Assembly: GCA_008330645.1 (NCBI GenBank) | Contig: VLTN01000002.1 | Location: forward strand, 62,001 to 126,000 | Direction of reading: 5' to 3' | DNA from: Cafeteria roenbergensis | Taxonomy: Eukaryota; Sar; Bigyra; Bicosoecida; Cafeteriaceae | DNA: 64,000 nucleotides | Shown here: piece by piece, positions 3,150-61,787 of the stretch | Numbering within the stretch: position 1 is the stretch's first letter | Layout: each line of letters begins with the position of its first letter | The notes under the pieces: generated by a model | Databases searched by the model: none | What the model saw: only the letters and a program-made list of their open reading frames with translations | What the model was told of the DNA's origin: nothing | Program-made: the position numbers and the translations under genes

Positions 3150-5689
3150 TCACAACCGGTCAGCAGAGCTCTCCTGTGAGTCGTGGTCAGCAGCGTCCGG
3201 GTCCGCGTCTGCCAGGGCCTGGAGCGCGCGGTTGTCGATGCGGCCCTCCTCGTTCATCATGCCCAGCACCTCGTCCATGGCCAGCGCGCCGTCCTGGTCG
3301 GCGTCGAAGATGGAGTACACGATGTCCACGCTCTCGAGCGGGATGGCCGTGCCCGTGACTTTGAAGTACAGCCTGCAGTGGCAGCCGCGGGGAGAGCGGG
3401 AAGAAGCGCGTTGGGGGGAACCCACGGGGAGCGGCGACGCCGTCCGCGCAAACAGCGCGTCGAGCCAAAGCAAGGGGGGCGGTTGCCTGGACACTGCACG
3501 TGCGGCGGATGGCAGGCAGCGCGGTGCCGCGAGCAGGCGCGCAACGACGGCTACGGCCGCGGCAGGCGCGTCGGCCGACCGACTCACTGGGCGAACTGGT
3601 CGCGGGTCAGCCTGAGGTGCTGCGCCCCGCTGATGCCGTCGCCGCTGGTGGATACCACGAGGGGCTTGGCTGTCGTTGCAGCCCCGCTGAACGCAGCTGC
3701 GAGGGGGCTGACGGCCGGCCGAGGAGCCCGCAGGCCGATCCTCGAGACGAACTGGCCAACCCTGTGAGCGTGCCTGCCCGCCGGCGAGGACAGCACGGTC
3801 CAGTCCCGCACGGCGTAGTACGTGCCGACCGTGGCAACCACGCACGCGCCGGCCACCGCGTAGAAGGGGCCTCGCGACGCCACCTCCTCCAGCCCGTTGT
3901 AGAGGTTCATGCCTGAGGCGGGGTTCGAGCAGCGCAGAGCAACAGGGCGCTACGGGATCACATGGGCAGGATGGGGCGCACGAGGGGCGCACGAGGGGCG
4001 CGACCGATGGGTTGGGCGGCTGCGGCGACGCGACGCGACGCGACCGGCGATGCAAGTGAGATGGCAGCGGCGCCCGCCGCACGTGGCCTTGGCCCGCTCT
4101 CGGCCCCGCTCACCGAACAGCCCGGACGCGAGCGTCCCGAACGACACGCCCAGCCCAATGATGGTCATCCGGAGGTTGATGTCGATGAGGTGGTTCCGGT
4201 AGGCATCGAGCGTGGACCCGAGGATGGCCTGGCGGGTGTCCATGTGGCGGAGCATCTGCTGCGCCTGCTGCCGCACGTCGGCTGCGAGTCGGAGATGCGT
4301 CTCCAGCATCACCTCCAGGTCGAGGAGCGCATCCTCGTGAACCCGCTCGAGGACCACGGTTGGGGAGCCGGCCTCCACCGACGTGCCCTTGTTGGGGCCC
4401 CAGCCCCTGAGGATGCGGCGGGGCGCGGCTGGCGAGCCCGGCGGCAGCGGCCGCACCCTGGGCACGTCAGCGATTGCAGGGAAGGCCTCGGAGAAGGCCC
4501 GTCGCTTCTCGCTCAGGCAGGCCTCGCGCATGTCCCTGTCGCTCTGGAGCACCTCGGTAAGGCACTCCACCACGTCGTGGGAAGCCGTCCTGAAGTGCTC
4601 GAGCGTGTTGCGCAGCGGGAAGAGGGTGTACAGCCGGTCAGGCTCCGAGTCGAGCGTGGCCAGCGCGTTCTGCACAAGCGGCCGAACGAAGGCGAGCCGG
4701 CGGGAGTGGCGCGAGTGCGTGGACCGCAGGAGGTGGTCAAGCATCACGAACTCAAACGCCGCGGCCCGGTCCGCGGACGGCGCGTCCATGCCCGAAAAGC
4801 CGGGGGGCGCGGGGGCGCTGTGCTTGGCCGAAGCGCCGTGGCGGCCGCCCCCCCTGCCGGGCTGCGGGCGGTGCTGCACGGCGTCGGCCCCCGGCGCGCT
4901 GGGCGCCCCTGCCGCGGCCAGAAGCTCCCCGTCAGCACGCTGCATCGGCCCGCCCATGGAGGGCTCGTCTGTCGTCCACGGGTCGACGAACACCTGCTCC
5001 TCGGATTGGGGCACAGCCTCTGCCAGGTCGGCCACGGTCTCCGCGGCTGCGGCCTGCTCGGCTATCGCGCCGGGCTCCACAGACGGGGACGCCGGCCCGG
5101 CCGGCTGCTCCGCGGCCGAGCCAGCAGCCTCGGGAGCCGCCTTGGCTGCATCAGCGGCGGCTCGCTCGGCGGCGTCGGCAAGGGCGCTGCGCGCCTGGTG
5201 CATCGTCTCGGCCTGCTGCTGCAGCAGCTCCGCAAAGGCCTCCACGGACTGAGCCTTTTTCGTGGCATCAGCCGAGCGCCCTTGCGGCAGCCAGAGGTGA
5301 ATTTCGTTGTTGTACAGAATGCCGCGCAGGTGCGACAGCGCGAAAATAATGCAGCGACGGCGCGGCAAGAGGCGGTACTGCGGCTGCCCGCTGCCCGCGT
5401 CGAACCCAAAGTCCAGCGCGCTGACCAGGTCCCGCGAGTGCAGTCCGGAGCGCCGCTTGACATCGGCCAGCGACCAAGTCTCGCGAGAAACGGCCCCCGT
5501 GGAGACAATGCGAATGACGGAGATCAACTGGCTTCCGGTCAGCGTCATGGCCTCGCGGACCCCCGGAGGCGGGGCTGCGCGCACGCTCGGCGCGTCACGC
5601 CACGCGGGCGCACGCGCCACTGCCGCGGACGCAGCCGCGACGGCGCGGCGTGCGGCAGACACTCCGCGCCGAGCGATTGAAGCTGACAT
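3150..5689 (-). CDS. MRS2: Mrs2/CorA-type Mg2+ channel fused to a C-terminal EF-hand (mitochondrial)
   Basis: Three exons: 5689-4114, 3912-3588 and 3372-3150; introns 4113-3913 (GTGAGC...CAG) and 3587-3373 (GTGAGT...CAG). The spliced product is 707 residues. Residues 1-45 are Arg/Ala/Ser-rich without acidic residues, as in a mitochondrial presequence. An Mrs2 N-domain follows (RRSGLHSRDL near 76; RGILYNNEIHLWL), then a low-complexity insert (about 152-300) and the long helices, including LEVMLETHL near 455 and RNHLIDINL. TM1 ends in LASGLFG; the next residues from exon 2 complete the G-M-N filter signature at 526-528, with the Gly codon split G|GC by intron 1. TM2 is about 542-561. Exon 3 encodes a canonical EF-hand loop, DADQDGALAMDE (657-668), whose preceding helix resembles the C-terminal EF-hand region of MICU proteins. 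Mrs2 moves Mg2+ into the matrix; Ca2+ control through the EF-hand is inference. Confidence 0.9.
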
Positions 5690-6088: not shown

Positions 6089-8538
6089 TCAGAAGGGGCG
6101 GTCGCCCTTGCTCGCGCGCTTGGCAAACTTGCCCTTGCGGTGGCGCATCTTCCACTGCACACGGCCGGCCTTGGAAGCGCCGGCGCCCGCGCGGCCACCG
6201 CCGATGGTGAAGGCTCCGGGGCCCACCTTGAGGGTGGTGCCGGCGCCCACACCCATGCGAGCGGCGTGCTTGGAGTACGCCTTGAGCGGGTCCTGGCCGC
6301 CCTGCGCGCCCTTGCGGCCGCCCGAGGCTGCGCCGGCGCGCTTTGCCTGAGAGTCCGCCGCGGCGGCCTCGGCAGCGGCCTTGACCGAGTTGGGGAGGAG
6401 GTAGGCTGGGACGGTGGCCAGCTCGGGGCGCACGCGGCTAGGGAGCAGCGGCCCGTCGTGGCGCAGCACCCGCAGGTCGTCGGGGTTGTCCTCAAAGTGC
6501 GCCTTGAGCCGCTCTGAGTTGAGCATCTCGTTCTTGAGCTCGGCGGCACGCGCCTCGCGGATCACCTTGCGGCCCCGCAAGCTCTGCAACACCTGCTGCA
6601 CGCGGTAGCGGAAGCCGGTCACCTCGTTCTTGTCGAAGGGGAGCAGGGCCGGCTGCGGGGCGCCGTCCGCGGCGGGCGCCTGGGTGGCCCGTGCGCGCTC
6701 CACGATGGATGCTGCCGCGGCGTCGCCGGGGCGCATGAACGACAACGAGGCCCCGGACGCGCCGCCGCGGGCAGTGCGGCCGATGCGGTGCACGTAGGCG
6801 TGGAGGGTTCGGGGGAAGTCCACGTTGACCACGGTGCCGACTCCGCGGAAGTCAACGCCGCGAGCGACGCCATACTCGATGTCGGCGCGGAGGCGGCGCA
6901 GGCGCTGCTGGCGGCGGGCGCTGCGGCGGGCGATGGCCACGGCCTCGGCCGAGGGGCGCTCGCGCTTGGCGGCCTTCTCCCCGGCGGCAGAACGCTCCTC
7001 GCGAGCGCGCTTGCGGGGCGCGGCGGCAGCCACGCGCTTCTTCGCGTCCTCCTCATCATCTTCATCACCGCCCTCCTCCTCATCGTCCTCCTCGCTGTCG
7101 TCGGCGCTCTCGTCGTCCGCGTCATCGTCCTCGTCGTCCTGCGGATCCTCCTCGTCCTCGTCATCATCGTCCTCCTCCTCCTCCTCGTCATCATCATCAT
7201 CGTCATCATCATCGTCCTCGTCCTCGTCCTCGTCCTCCGCGTCGCGCGCTGCCGCTGCGCGCGCAACCTCGCCCAGCCCCTCCCTGATGAGATCGCCCTC
7301 TGCGTCGTCCTCCTCCAGGGCCTCCTCGGCCCCGCCCTCGCCGTCAGAGTCCTCGGCGTCCACGCCAAGGCTCTCGTCCGTGGCGATGAGATAGTCAAAG
7401 ACCCCCTGGTGGAACTGGCGCAGCACGTGGGCGCGCGAGTTGGCGGGGAGCTCCGCGTTGAGCACCGCCGCGCGGATGCCGAACGCCTCGAGGAAGAGCT
7501 TGAGGCGGTAGCAGGAGTCCAGGTCGTTTACGAAGAAGATTGCGCGGCCGGACACGAGGCGGAGCTTGACGAGCGCGTACAGGAGCAGGTATCTGTCCTC
7601 CTCGCCCACCTCGACGACCCACTGCGTGAGGGTGCCGTCGGTGCTGGAGGCGCCGTCCTCGAGGCGCAGCACGGCAGGGGAGTGCAGCACGACGCGGCGC
7701 ATGTCCTCCAGCTGCTGCGGCAGGGTGGCTGAGAGGAGGAGGGTCTGCACGGCGCGGGGGAGGCGGCGGACCACCCCCTTCACGTCGTCACCGTGGCCGT
7801 AGGACAAGACGAGGTCGGCCTCGTCCACGATGAGCTGCTCCAGGCGGTCCAGCACAAGCTTTCCAGCGGCGAGATGGGCCATGACGCGGGCGGGCGTGCC
7901 GACCAGCACGTCCGGGTCGCGGGCCAGCGCAGCAGCCTGGGACTCGTCCGAGCCGGAGGCCAGCGAGGCCACGGACACCACGTCGCGGCAGAAGAACGCA
8001 AGAGCCTCGAAGACGGACGCGGTCTGGGCGGTCAGCTCCCTCGTGGGAACCAGCACGAGCACGCGAGGCGCGCCGCCGACAGCGCTCGCAGCCGCGGCGC
8101 CGTCCTGTGTGCGGGCAAGAACGCGCTGCAGCGCCGCCAGGGCGTACGCAGCGGTCTTTCCAGAACCGGTCTTCGCCCGCACAAGCAGGTCACGGCCCTC
8201 CAGGGCAAGCGGGATGGCCTTGGACTGCACCAGAGTCGGGGTCACATACCCCATCTGCTGAACGGCCGCAACCAGGCGCCGGTCGAGACCTGCGCCAACG
8301 GGAGCAGCACCACAGGCACACTGGAGACTGCTTGCAGTTGGATGCCGCCGTGCAGCAGTCGGTGGCGCGCGCGCGCGCGGCGCGATTGCGAGGCGAAGCG
8401 CGCTCGCAGAAAGGCACGCAGCTCACCCAGCTCGGCATCGGTGAAGGCCGCCTTGTTGTCCAGGTACTTTGCGTTCAGGACACCCGCGACAGCCCCCCGG
8501 ACCGCAACGGCGCTCGCAGGCACAGCTTCAGCCGCCAT
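6089..8538 (-). CDS. DDX56: DEAD-box ATP-dependent RNA helicase, DDX56/Dbp9 family
   Basis: Two exons: 8538-8427 and 8289-6089; intron 8426-8290 (GTGAGC...GCGCAG), total 770 residues. Splicing joins ...FTDAEL to GLDRRLVAAVQQMG, restoring the family's LGLDxRLL Q-motif region. ATG 8538 was chosen for its good context (CCCCATGG); an in-frame ATG at 8640 is possible. Visible motifs are PTLVQ, AKTGSGKT (about 78), PTRELTAQ, VDEAD (about 193), LLLSATLP, YLIATDE, RGVDFRG (about 518) and HRIGRTARGG (about 541). Between YLIATDE and RGVDFRG lies a long Asp/Glu insertion (about 388-450) followed by a basic stretch. Dbp9/DDX56 proteins are known to carry a shorter insertion there, so this is an exaggerated family trait. 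The C-terminus is basic (RKGKFAKR). The family acts in the nucleolus in 60S ribosomal subunit assembly. Confidence 0.93.
7042..7243 (-). repeat. Acidic (Asp/Glu) simple-repeat tract inside the DDX56-like gene
   Basis: On the plus strand this is a run of TCC/TCG/TCA triplets; in the gene's frame it reads as Asp and Glu almost without interruption for more than 60 residues. It stays in frame and separates two conserved helicase motifs, so it is an expanded coding insertion, not an intron. Confidence 0.85.
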
Positions 8539-57557: not shown

Positions 57558-60500
57558 TCACGGGCTCGCCACGCCGTCGACGAGCGGGTTGCTGTTGTGA
57601 GTGGAAGGATCCGCGGGGTTGGGGCTAGCAGGCGACGACAGCGGGGCGAGCCCGGCGCCGGCGTGGGGCCCGGGCGGCCCTTGCAGCGTGGGCGCGCCGC
57701 GCTGGGCGTGCGGCGGCTGAGCCCCGGCCAGGTTGGCGGGGCGGCTGGAGCGGAGCCCAACGAGCAGGCCGACGACGCACAGGGCTCCGGTGACGCCAGC
57801 AATGATGGGCAGGGAACTGGAGGGCTGCAGCGCAGACGTCGGGGAGTCGAGCTGCGCGGAGAGCAGCGCCGATTGCGACGGCGATGCTGTGGGTGTGGCT
57901 GTCGTCGATGGCGTGGCATGTGCTGAGGGTGTGGTGGATGCCGCTGGTGCAATGGTCGCCGAGGAAGATGCCGATACCGAGGGGGATTCTGACGTGGAGG
58001 GCGATGCTGACGAGGACGCCGAGGGTGAAAACGACACCGAAGGTGATGCCGACACCGAAGGCGATGCCGACACCGAAGGTGATGCCGACACCGAAGGCGA
58101 TGCCGACACCGAAGGCGATGCCGACCCCGAGGGCGATGCCGACACCGAAGGCGATGCCGACACCGAAGGCGATGCCGACACCGAAGGCGATGCCGACACC
58201 GAAGGCGATGCCGACACCGAAGGCGATGCCGACACCGAAGGCGATGCCGACACCGAAGGCGATGCCGACCCCGAGGGCGATGCCGACACCGAAGGCGATG
58301 CCGACACCGAAGGCGATGCCGACACCGAAGGCGATGCCGACACCGAAGGCGATGCCGACACCGAAGGCGATGCCGACACCGAAGGTGATGCCGACACCGA
58401 GGGCGATGCCGACACCGAAGGCGATGCCGACACCGAAGGTGATGCCGACACCGAAGGCGATGCCGACACCGAAGGCGATGCCGACACCGAAGGCGATGCC
58501 GACACCGAAGGTGATGCCGACACCGAGGGCGATGCCGACACCGAAGGCGATGCCGACACCGAAGGCGATGCCGACCCCGAGGGCGATGCCGACACCGAAG
58601 GCGATGCCGACACCGAAGGCGATGCCGACACCGAAGGCGATGCCGACACCGAAGGCGATGCCGACACCGAAGGCGATGCCGACACCGAAGGCGATGCCGA
58701 CACCGAAGGCGATGCCGACACCGAAGGCGATGCCGACCCCGAGGGCGATGCCGACACCGAAGGCGATGCCGACACCGAAGGCGATGCCGACACCGAAGGC
58801 GATGCCGACACCGAAGGCGATGCCGACACCGAAGGCGATGCCGACACCGAAGGCGATGCCGACACCGAAGGCGATGCCGACACCGAAGGCGATGCCGACA
58901 CCGAAGGTGATGCCGACACCGAGGGCGATGCCGACACCGAAGGCGATGCCGACACCGAAGGCGATGCCGACACCGAAGGTGATGCCGACACCGAAGGCGA
59001 TGCCGACACCGAAGGTGATGCCGACACCGAAGGCGATGCCGACACCGAAGGCGATGCCGACACCGAAGGCGATGCCGACACCGAAGGCGATGCCGACACC
59101 GAAGGCGATGCCGACACCGAAGGCGATGCCGACACCGAAGGTGATGCCGACACCGAAGGTGATGCCGACACCGAAGGCGATGCCGACAGCGAAGGCGATG
59201 CCGACACCGAAGGTGATGCCGACACCGAAGGCGATGCCGACACCGAAGGCGATGCCGACACCGAAGGCGATGCCGACACCGAAGGCGATGCCGACACCGA
59301 AGGCGATGCCGACACCGAAGGCGATGCCGACACCGAAGGCGATGCCGACACCGAAGGCGATGCCGACACCGAAGGCGATGCCGACACCGAGGGCGATGCC
59401 GACACCGAAGGTGATGCCGACACCGAGGGCGATGCCGACACCGAAGGTGATGCCGACATCGAAGGCGATGCGGGCGATGCCGACACCGAAGGTGATGCCG
59501 ACACCGAAGGCGATGCCGACACCGAAGGCGATGCCGACACCGAAGGCGATGCCGACACCGAAGGCGATGCCGACACCGAAGGCGATGCCGACACCGAAGG
59601 CGATGCCGACACCGAAGGCGATGCCGACACCGAAGGCGATGCCGACACCGAAGGGGATGCCGACACCGAGGGCGATGCCGACACCGAAGGCGATGCCGAC
59701 ACCGAAGGCGATGCCGACACCGAAGGTGATGCCGACACCGAAGGTGATGCCGACACCGAAGGCGATGCCGACACCGAAGGCGATGCCGACACCGAAGGTG
59801 ATGCCGACACCGAAGGCGATGCCGACACCGAAGGCGATGCCGACACCGAAGGCGATGCCGACACCGAAGGCGATGCCGACACCGAAGGCGATGCCGACAC
59901 CGAAGGCGATGCCGACACCGAAGGCGATGCCGACACCGAAGGCGATGCCGACACCGAGGGTGATGCCGACGCCGAGGGCGATGCCGACACCGAAGGTGAT
60001 GCCGACACCGAAGGCGATGCCGACACCGAAGGTGATGCCGACACCGAAGGCGATGCCGACACCGAAGGCGATGCCGACACCGAAGGCGATGCCGACACCG
60101 AAGGCGATGCCGACACCGAAGGTGATGCCGACACCGAAGGCGATGCCGACACCGAAGGCGATGCCGACACCGAAGGCGATGCCGACACCGAAGGCGATGC
60201 CGACACCGAAGGCGATGCCGACACCGAAGGCGATGCCGACACCGAAGGCGATGCCGACACCGAAGGCGATGCCGACACCGAAGGCGATGCCGACACCGAA
60301 GGTGATGCCGACACCGAAGGCGATGCCGACACCGAAGGCGATGCCGACACCGAAGGCGATGCCGACACCGAAGGCGATGCCGACACCGAAGGCGATGCCG
60401 ACACCGAAGGCGATGCCGACACCGAAGGTGATGCCGACACCGAAGGCGATGCCGACACCGAAGGTGATGCCGACACCGAAGGCGATGCCGACACCGAAGG

Positions 60501-61787
60501 TGATGCCGACACCGAGGGCGATGCCGACACCGAAGGCGACACAGACACCGACGCCGATGGCGATGCCGACACCGAGGGCGATGCCGATACTGACGGCGAT
60601 GGCGTGGACGATGGAGCGATCAGCGGCACAGCACCATTAAAAATCGGCACAGTGCCGGGCGTGTCGCCCAGTTTGTTTGTATTGCCGTACCCAAGCCGGC
60701 CCTTGGCCGCAAAACCAAATGCCAGGACTGAGCCATCATCCAAGAGCACCAAGTTGTGCAGGTCGCCTGCAGCAACGGCCACCGCAAAGCCACTTGTATG
60801 CACGAAGCCCTTCTTCTCAGGAGTCGTGCTTGGCGTCATGCCGACGCTGGCTTGGGAGCCGTGCCCGAGCTGGCCGGAAGTCGCCTCCCCAAATGTACGG
60901 ATTGTGCCATCGTCGAGCACCACCAGGCTGTGAAGCCAACCCGCAGCCACGGCCGTTGCATTGCCACCCAGCGGTACGGGGCCCTGCTCCTGCGGAGTAC
61001 CGCTGATTCCGACGTTGTCTGTGGAGCCGTACCCGAGCTGGCCGTTGGCCGCATCCCCAAATGCACGGACTGTGCCATCATCCAGCACCACCAGGCTGTG
61101 ATGCCAACTCGCAGAAACAGCCACTGCAGTGCCACCCAACGAAACGGGGGCTGGCGAGTACAAAATTTGGGCGCTGATGCCCATTTGGCCCATGCCTCCG
61201 TATCCGAATGCCATGACTATGCCATCACTTAGAAGCACCAAGCTATGCAAGTAGCCAGCGGCAGCGGCCGTTGCAGGGCCTCCCAGTGGCACGAAGCCCT
61301 TGAGCATCGGCAGAGTGGCTGGCGTGTCGCCCACGTTGGCTGCGTCGCCGTACCCCAGCTGGCCGAAAGTCCCCGCACCAAAAGCAAGGACCGAGCCGTT
61401 GACCAGCAGGGCGAAGCTGTGAGCTTTTCCGGCGGTCACAGCCGTTGCAGGTCCGCCCAGCGGCACAGCGTTCAGATTCGAAGGTGCGGTCTCGAGCGTG
61501 CCGCCCAGACTGTCTGTGTTGCCGTACCCAAGCTTGCCATCGGTCCCGTCTCCAAACGCTCGGACCGATCCGTCGCCCAGCACCACCATGCTATGATCGC
61601 CGCCAGCATCCACTGCCGTGGCAGTGCCACCCAGCGGCACCGGACCCTTCACCCATGGCAGAGTCGCAGGTGTGTCGCCCACATTGGAGGTGGACCCGTA
61701 CCCGAGCTGACCTTTGCTGCCATCGCCGAAAGCCAGCAGCGAGCCGTTGTCCAGCAGCACCAAGCTGTGTGCAAGCCCTGCAGCCAC
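57558..61787 (-). CDS. Membrane-anchored seven-bladed RCC1-repeat protein with giant Ser/Pro stalk (5' exon unresolved)
   Basis: The frame is open from 62039 to the stop at 57558 but has no ATG upstream of the first repeat, so a short first exon must be spliced on. The likeliest acceptor is CAACGCAG at 61788, just before [15 protein letters not shown]; an alternative with an 11-nt exon at 62275-62265 (MLH) joined at about 61814 is possible but weak. Seven RCC1 repeats (about 61787-60620), each with [20 protein letters not shown] and GQLGYG motifs, make a complete beta-propeller. A (SVSASP)n tract of roughly 870 residues follows, encoded by an 18-bp minisatellite. Then come a Thr/Ser/Ala spacer, one membrane helix ([20 protein letters not shown], about 57814-57755) and a 60-residue Pro/Ala-rich tail. 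The architecture implies a cell-surface protein with the propeller held outside on an O-glycosylated stalk. Nuclear RCC1 exchange-factor activity is not expected. Ligands are unknown. Confidence 0.82.
57990..60600 (-). repeat. 18-bp coding minisatellite, about 140 copies, (SVSASP)n
   Basis: The unit on the plus strand is GGCGATGCCGACACCGAA, repeated head to tail with no spacers. Variants change single bases: GGT for GGC, GAG for GAA, CCC for ACC (giving Gly for Val in the protein), AGC, GCC and one GGG. One partial unit near 59465-59480 shortens the period but keeps the frame. CCC-variant copies occur at about 58123, 58267, 58573 and 58735, that is 8, 17 and 9 units apart, a sign of block duplication. 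The array keeps three frames open (SVSASP on minus; DTEGDA and PTPKAM on plus); only the minus frame joins to conserved domains at both ends. Confidence 0.95.

Follow-up and report, generated by a model that had tools for sequence, protein, structure and literature searches.

A probable fusion of an Mrs2-type channel with a C-terminal EF-hand in Cafeteria roenbergensis

Mrs2 proteins of the CorA/Mrs2 2-TM-GxN superfamily, with structures of human MRS2 (8ip3, 8tul and 8ts1) and of Mrs2 (8q8p and 8q8q) available for comparison, combine a presequence-like N-terminus, a matrix domain with a characteristic profile, a long stalk leading into the first transmembrane helix (TM1), a GMN signature and a second helix (TM2). 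In human MRS2, both the N-terminal domain and the end of TM2 are on the matrix side of the membrane (PMC10632456), and the DALVD motif serves as a Mg2+-feedback site (PMC9909464). The description of the human protein drawn on here mentions no EF-hand. Mitochondrial transporters with a fused Ca2+-regulatory EF-hand domain include the ATP-Mg/Pi carrier (SCaMC/APC) and the aspartate/glutamate carrier (PMC6283063). The ATP-Mg/Pi carrier has four N-terminal EF-hands on another transporter fold, whereas the protein described here would have one canonical hand, at its C-terminus. A further point of comparison is provided by MICU1, MICU2, MICU3 and the MICU homologue 9k6m, in whose C-lobe a degenerate half-hand is followed by a canonical hand.

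The gene considered here lies in a window of 64,000 nucleotides (positions 62001-126000 of contig C2), within a genome searched as 36,303,456 bases in 167 contigs. Its predicted product shares with Mrs2 the matrix-domain profile, the long stalk and TM1, the GMN signature and TM2, has a presequence-like N-terminus, and differs from Mrs2 in a low-complexity insert of approximately 130 residues, which by eye interrupts the matrix domain at about residues 175-305, and in a tail of 147 residues after TM2 that contains the EF-hand. The fusion itself is judged likely from the sequence.

Exon structure and coding signal

The original prediction placed an Mrs2 domain, TM1-GMN-TM2 and an EF-hand loop in a single spliced frame, and this arrangement was borne out by three exons that join in phase (Table 1). 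The Gly codon of the GMN signature is split by intron 1, and without splicing the first ORF stops short of GMN. The Mrs2 chain 8q8p was matched with 46.6 bits by the full spliced protein, compared with 29.0 bits by exon 1 alone.

Table 1. Features of the Mrs2/EF-hand gene, in window coordinates
Feature	Position	Strand	Content
Whole gene	5689-3150	minus	3 exons and 2 GT-AG introns, giving 707 codons plus stop
Exon 1	4114..5689	minus	residues 1-525 and first base of Gly526; first in-frame ATG at 5689; Arg-rich presequence-like N-terminus, Mrs2 matrix domain, low-complexity insert, TM1
Intron 1	3913..4113	minus	GTGAGC..CTCAG, 201 nt
Exon 2	3588..3912	minus	GMN signature, intermembrane loop, TM2, linker, second half of degenerate first EF-hand (LRLTRDQFAQ)
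Intron 2	3373..3587	minus	GTGAGT..TGCAG, 215 nt
Exon 3	3150..3372	minus	EF-hand helix-loop-helix, acidic C-terminus; stop codon 3150-3152
Canonical EF-hand loop DADQDGALAMDE	3270..3305	minus	residues 657-668

Codon usage was scored against a training set of seven other long ORFs of the same genome (5,349 codons). In the proposed frame, exon 1 scored +194.8 over 525 codons and exon 2 scored +39.4, with both other frames negative in each case, while exon 3 reached +59.9 over its 74 codons and its alternative frames gave -74.9 and -45.1. As a yardstick, a score of 46 is reached by 1.07% of 10,344 73-codon windows taken in six frames across the whole window, real genes included. Both introns scored negative in all three frames. 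The coding signal begins at the acceptor of intron 2, the last 90 intron nucleotides being negative in every frame and the first 90 nucleotides of exon 3 scoring +29.9. Among the 172 GT-AG joins that keep exon 2 open to the stop at 3150, intron 2 as proposed gave the highest coding score (102.3), followed at 99.6 by a join that differs from it only in the donor, which lies 9 nt further upstream.

The original prediction had named a separate start for the EF-hand part as an observation that would speak against it. The open stretch of the exon-3 frame extends from 4109 to 3150, and its first Met, after 277 residues, sits within the EF-hand loop itself. A separate downstream EF-hand gene was therefore rejected, as the frame has no ATG of its own. 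Because no Met precedes the EF-hand loop, translation of an independent exon-3 protein would have to begin in another exon further upstream or at a codon other than ATG. Downstream, the long ORF is on the opposite strand, in convergent orientation, and ends at 2896. Given the coding signal that begins at the acceptor, the best score among 172 joins, the lack of an ATG of its own and an EF-hand similarity that reaches into exon 2 (see below), exon 3 is very probably part of the Mrs2 gene, and these same observations, together with the agreement in splice phase, upheld the predicted fusion of Mrs2 with an EF-hand. AlphaFold single-sequence models were of low confidence (mean pLDDT 53.0 for exon 3 and 45.2 for exon 1) and are neutral with regard to the interpretation preferred below.

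The GC content of the window varies from 0.64 to 0.78 in 2-kb steps. Upstream of the Mrs2 gene and on the same strand, an ORF at 6089-8422 (minus) resembles a DEAD-box helicase by eye and has a long acidic low-complexity stretch. Elsewhere, positions 58032-60601 hold a 2.57-kb array of approximately 143 copies of an 18-bp unit, the plus strand of which reads GDADTE by eye, and which adjoins apparent RCC1-type repeats (also by eye).

Channel domain and EF-hand tail

Membership of the Mrs2 family is firm on the basis of sequence comparison. In a profile search with the 707-residue protein, the MRS2-like family PF22099 was matched in three stretches with 52.9 bits (cut-off 27); the CorA profile scored 13.7 bits, under its own cut-off, and a scan of the same protein against NCBIfam returned no families. 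Five distinct Mrs2 sequences in the PDB were matched at E-values of 1.9e-11 to 9.4e-8, with 8q8p and the human MRS2 chains aligning along the stalk and TM1. The GMN signature occupies residues 526-528, between two C-terminal transmembrane helices, and hydropathy exceeded 1.4 (19-residue windows) only at residues 508-527 and 542-560. Residues 1-40 contain seven Arg, no Lys, one Asp and no Glu, and the N-terminal helical moment of 0.57 from residue 4 lies at the 98th percentile within this protein, an assessment of targeting from composition and moment. At the position of the DALVD site, alignment with human MRS2 suggests that the first Asp is replaced by Ala and that the second is retained as Asp, a lead only, as this stretch of the alignment is weak (2.6 bits). 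A Mg2+ channel remains the best reading of the role of this protein.

The EF-hand loop starts 96 residues past TM2. It satisfies, as DADQDGALAMDEV, the 12-13-residue loop consensus PS00018, and in a six-frame translation of the window (127,996 residues) this is the only match. The same pattern arose in 382 of 200,000 shuffles of a 90-residue tail consisting of exon 3 and 17 exon-2 residues. The loop has Asp at positions 1, 3 and 5 and Glu at position 12, which is the usual pattern of Ca2+-selective EF-hands. Among the best 60 of 173 PDB matches to the 90-residue tail, the top was 9k6m_A (E 1.4e-5, or 7.9e-5 with exon 3 alone), followed by 1jfj, a chain of an Entamoeba-type calcium-binding protein (E 2.8e-5), then by calsenilin, NCS-1 and recoverin (E 4e-4 to 1e-3) and by MICU1 (E of about 8e-3). 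The possibility that an EF-hand motif had arisen by chance in a GC-rich open frame was considered and rejected in view of the unique pattern match, the strong codon signal and the E-value of the top PDB match.

Pfam EF-hand profiles all remained under their gathering scores (EF-hand_7 17.2 of 30, EF-hand_8 16.4 of 28, EF-hand_6 14 of 25 and EF-hand_1 12.7 of 25.4 bits), and matches at E-values of up to 1 were confined to residues 626-675 of 707. The proposed domain search of the spliced product gave a match above cut-off for the Mrs2 part and only matches below cut-off for the EF-hand part. The loop is accordingly described as EF-hand-type by its consensus and by PDB matches, without Pfam certification. 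That there is only one canonical hand was, like the sub-cut-off Pfam scores, counted against a Ca2+-sensor fusion. Judged by sequence, one EF-hand loop with its helices is real.

The similarity to EF-hands does not begin at the exon junction. Matches to the pair profiles span 48-49 residues starting from the half-hand encoded in exon 2, the first loop being degenerate. Addition of the 17 exon-2 residues to exon 3 raised the scores of EF-hand_7 (13.5 to 17.2 bits) and EF-hand_8 (12.6 to 16.4 bits), whereas in eight of eight controls with these residues shuffled (of 18 made, eight were scored) the two profiles gave only 13.3-14.7 and 12.1-13.9 bits, respectively. The same addition improved the matches to 9k6m (26.4 to 28.8 bits), 1jfj (24.2 to 27.8), NCS-1 2l2e (20.8 to 23.6) and MICU1 6wdo (17.0 to 19.9), and brought no gain for calsenilin 2jul (24.5 to 24.1), calmodulin-like 2b1u (22.4 to 21.3) or calmodulin 2l1w (23.0 to 21.2). 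As the EF-hand similarity starts in exon 2, it is hard to account for unless exons 2 and 3 are joined.

The tail had also been called MICU-like. In support of this, the top solved match, 9k6m, is a MICU homologue (itself found by the MICU1 C-lobe at 6.9e-16), the order of degenerate half-hand and canonical hand is that of the MICU C-lobe, and the tail is 28% identical to the MICU1 C-lobe over 57 positions. However, 1jfj ranks second, and NCS-1 (at the score given above) and recoverin (23.5 bits) exceed MICU1, all among the best 60 of 173 matches, and the tail has neither the N-lobe nor the C-terminal region of MICU, nor its two-lobe architecture, and is attached to a channel. MICU1 is located in the intermembrane space, whereas a matrix location would be expected here. 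The description as MICU-like is only partly supported, the link to MICU is weak, and by sequence the ancestry of the module among EF-hands cannot be fixed.

Related genes in the same genome

The host genome was searched in six frames exon by exon, so that gene counts are lower bounds. The exon-3 segment found no match in it beyond itself. At least one other MRS2-like gene is present, on contig C56, and its ORF stops soon after TM2 with no EF-hand profile match at E 0.01. At least two MCU-type uniporter ORFs were found, on contigs C92 and C16, and from their sequences uniporter genes are present apart from the Mrs2/EF-hand fusion. The ORF on C92 (L014:1330-2601) additionally matches Pfam COR-A at residues 85-160 with 38.6 bits (cut-off 35.3).

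A candidate MICU gene lies on contig C1, where the MICU1 C-lobe matched at E 1.1e-4 (26% over 121 columns, 44.3 bits). Counting against its identity as a MICU, the sequences of known structure nearest to the whole ORF are calmodulins, and no MICU chain occurs among the best 60 of 84 matches. Descent of exon 3 from this candidate was considered and set aside as not resolvable, the two being 27% identical over 60 positions at 30.8 bits, near the scores of unrelated EF-hands.

A second combination of channel and EF-hands was observed on contig C13 (15,614-19,030, minus strand; L016:1115-4531), where an ORF of 1,139 codons, for which splicing is not needed, encodes a protein with a pair of EF-hands in its N-terminal part and a GMN-containing CorA domain in its C-terminal part. 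All of its scores are above cut-off (CorA 85.3, EF-hand_1 31.6 and EF-hand_7 30.6 bits). Both proteins are GMN channels with EF-hands, but the C13 protein has the CorA and not the Mrs2 profile and carries its EF-hands at the opposite end. From these sequences, the genome has apparently combined EF-hands with a GMN channel on two occasions, at the C-terminus of an Mrs2 and at the N-terminus of a CorA.

With regard to occurrence elsewhere, no relative of the fusion was confirmed by tblastn in viral and prokaryotic contig collections (10 and 7 pattern matches in two scans of viral_contigs, 89 in one of genome_contigs), a scope that says little. No description of an Mrs2-EF-hand or CorA-EF-hand fusion was found in a literature search covering titles and the beginnings of abstracts, to the exclusion of most subscription papers.

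Proposed role and competing readings

The preferred reading, to which a probability of roughly one half is assigned, is that of a nuclear-encoded Mrs2 Mg2+ channel of the mitochondrial inner membrane whose EF-hand tail would act as a matrix Ca2+ sensor and adjust Mg2+ uptake. By family topology, both termini would lie in the matrix; given that the end of TM2 in human MRS2 is on that side of the membrane, the tail would be expected there too, where it should sense Ca2+. We infer that the protein would be imported into mitochondria in this orientation, that it would bind Ca2+ and that Ca2+ would control its gating, in whichever sense. An Mrs2 tail would have gained an EF-hand module comprising one canonical Ca2+-binding loop and a degenerate half-hand; Ca2+ entering the matrix, for which the genome offers the two MCU-type ORFs and the MICU candidate, would occupy the loop, and the Ca2+-bound tail would then pack differently on the pentameric matrix domain. 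This altered packing would tune Mg2+ uptake, in the way that nucleotide transport by the ATP-Mg/Pi carrier is adjusted through its EF-hand domain, and by this analogy the adjustment of Mg2+ uptake upon matrix Ca2+ entry would be the most likely role. A bolder version is offered more tentatively, namely that this is a Ca2+-gated mitochondrial Mg2+ channel in one polypeptide, in which uniporter-delivered Ca2+ binds the tail and sets Mg2+ uptake, in a lineage that apparently put EF-hands on GMN channels twice.

The fusion could also be real and the EF-hand a Mg2+ or mixed Mg2+/Ca2+ site which, at near-millimolar matrix Mg2+, would be mostly Mg2+-loaded and would serve as an additional negative-feedback sensor or a structural element rather than respond to Ca2+ signals. 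The side chains at loop positions 1, 3, 5 and 12 argue against this, being those usual in Ca2+-selective members of the family. On the other hand, matrix Mg2+ is described as regulating Mrs2 channels through their own matrix domain (PMC9909464 and PMC11919701), and with the first Asp of DALVD apparently lost here, if the weakly aligned stretch is read correctly, a substitute site would make sense. This explanation is considered unlikely, though it retains some weight. Somewhat less probable is a module that forms only a structural or protein-interaction tail, with no Ca2+ sensing that affects transport; the combination of one degenerate and one canonical hand and the Pfam scores under cut-off would suit such a tail, while a full PS00018 match would be unexpected in a decayed site.

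An error in the gene model is the least probable of these alternatives. If intron 2 were kept, translation would run from exon 2 straight into an in-frame TGA, giving a protein of 634 residues that lacks the EF-hand, and exon 3 would then derive from elsewhere or belong to a minor isoform, or both forms could arise by intron retention. The strong coding signal of exon 3, the absence of an upstream Met, the phase-compatible GT-AG intron that scored best of 172 and the EF-hand similarity extending into exon 2 all oppose a gene that ends at this TGA, although an EF-hand-less isoform produced through retention of intron 2 is possible from the sequence.

It is not settled whether Ca2+ governs the uptake of Mg2+ by mitochondria, or by what means, and a natural EF-hand channel would make the question directly testable. 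If its tail senses Ca2+, the Mrs2/EF-hand protein would provide, among Mg2+ channels, an equivalent of the ATP-Mg/Pi carrier with its regulatory EF-hands, and in this organism the sensing of calcium and the entry of magnesium may be combined in a single protein.
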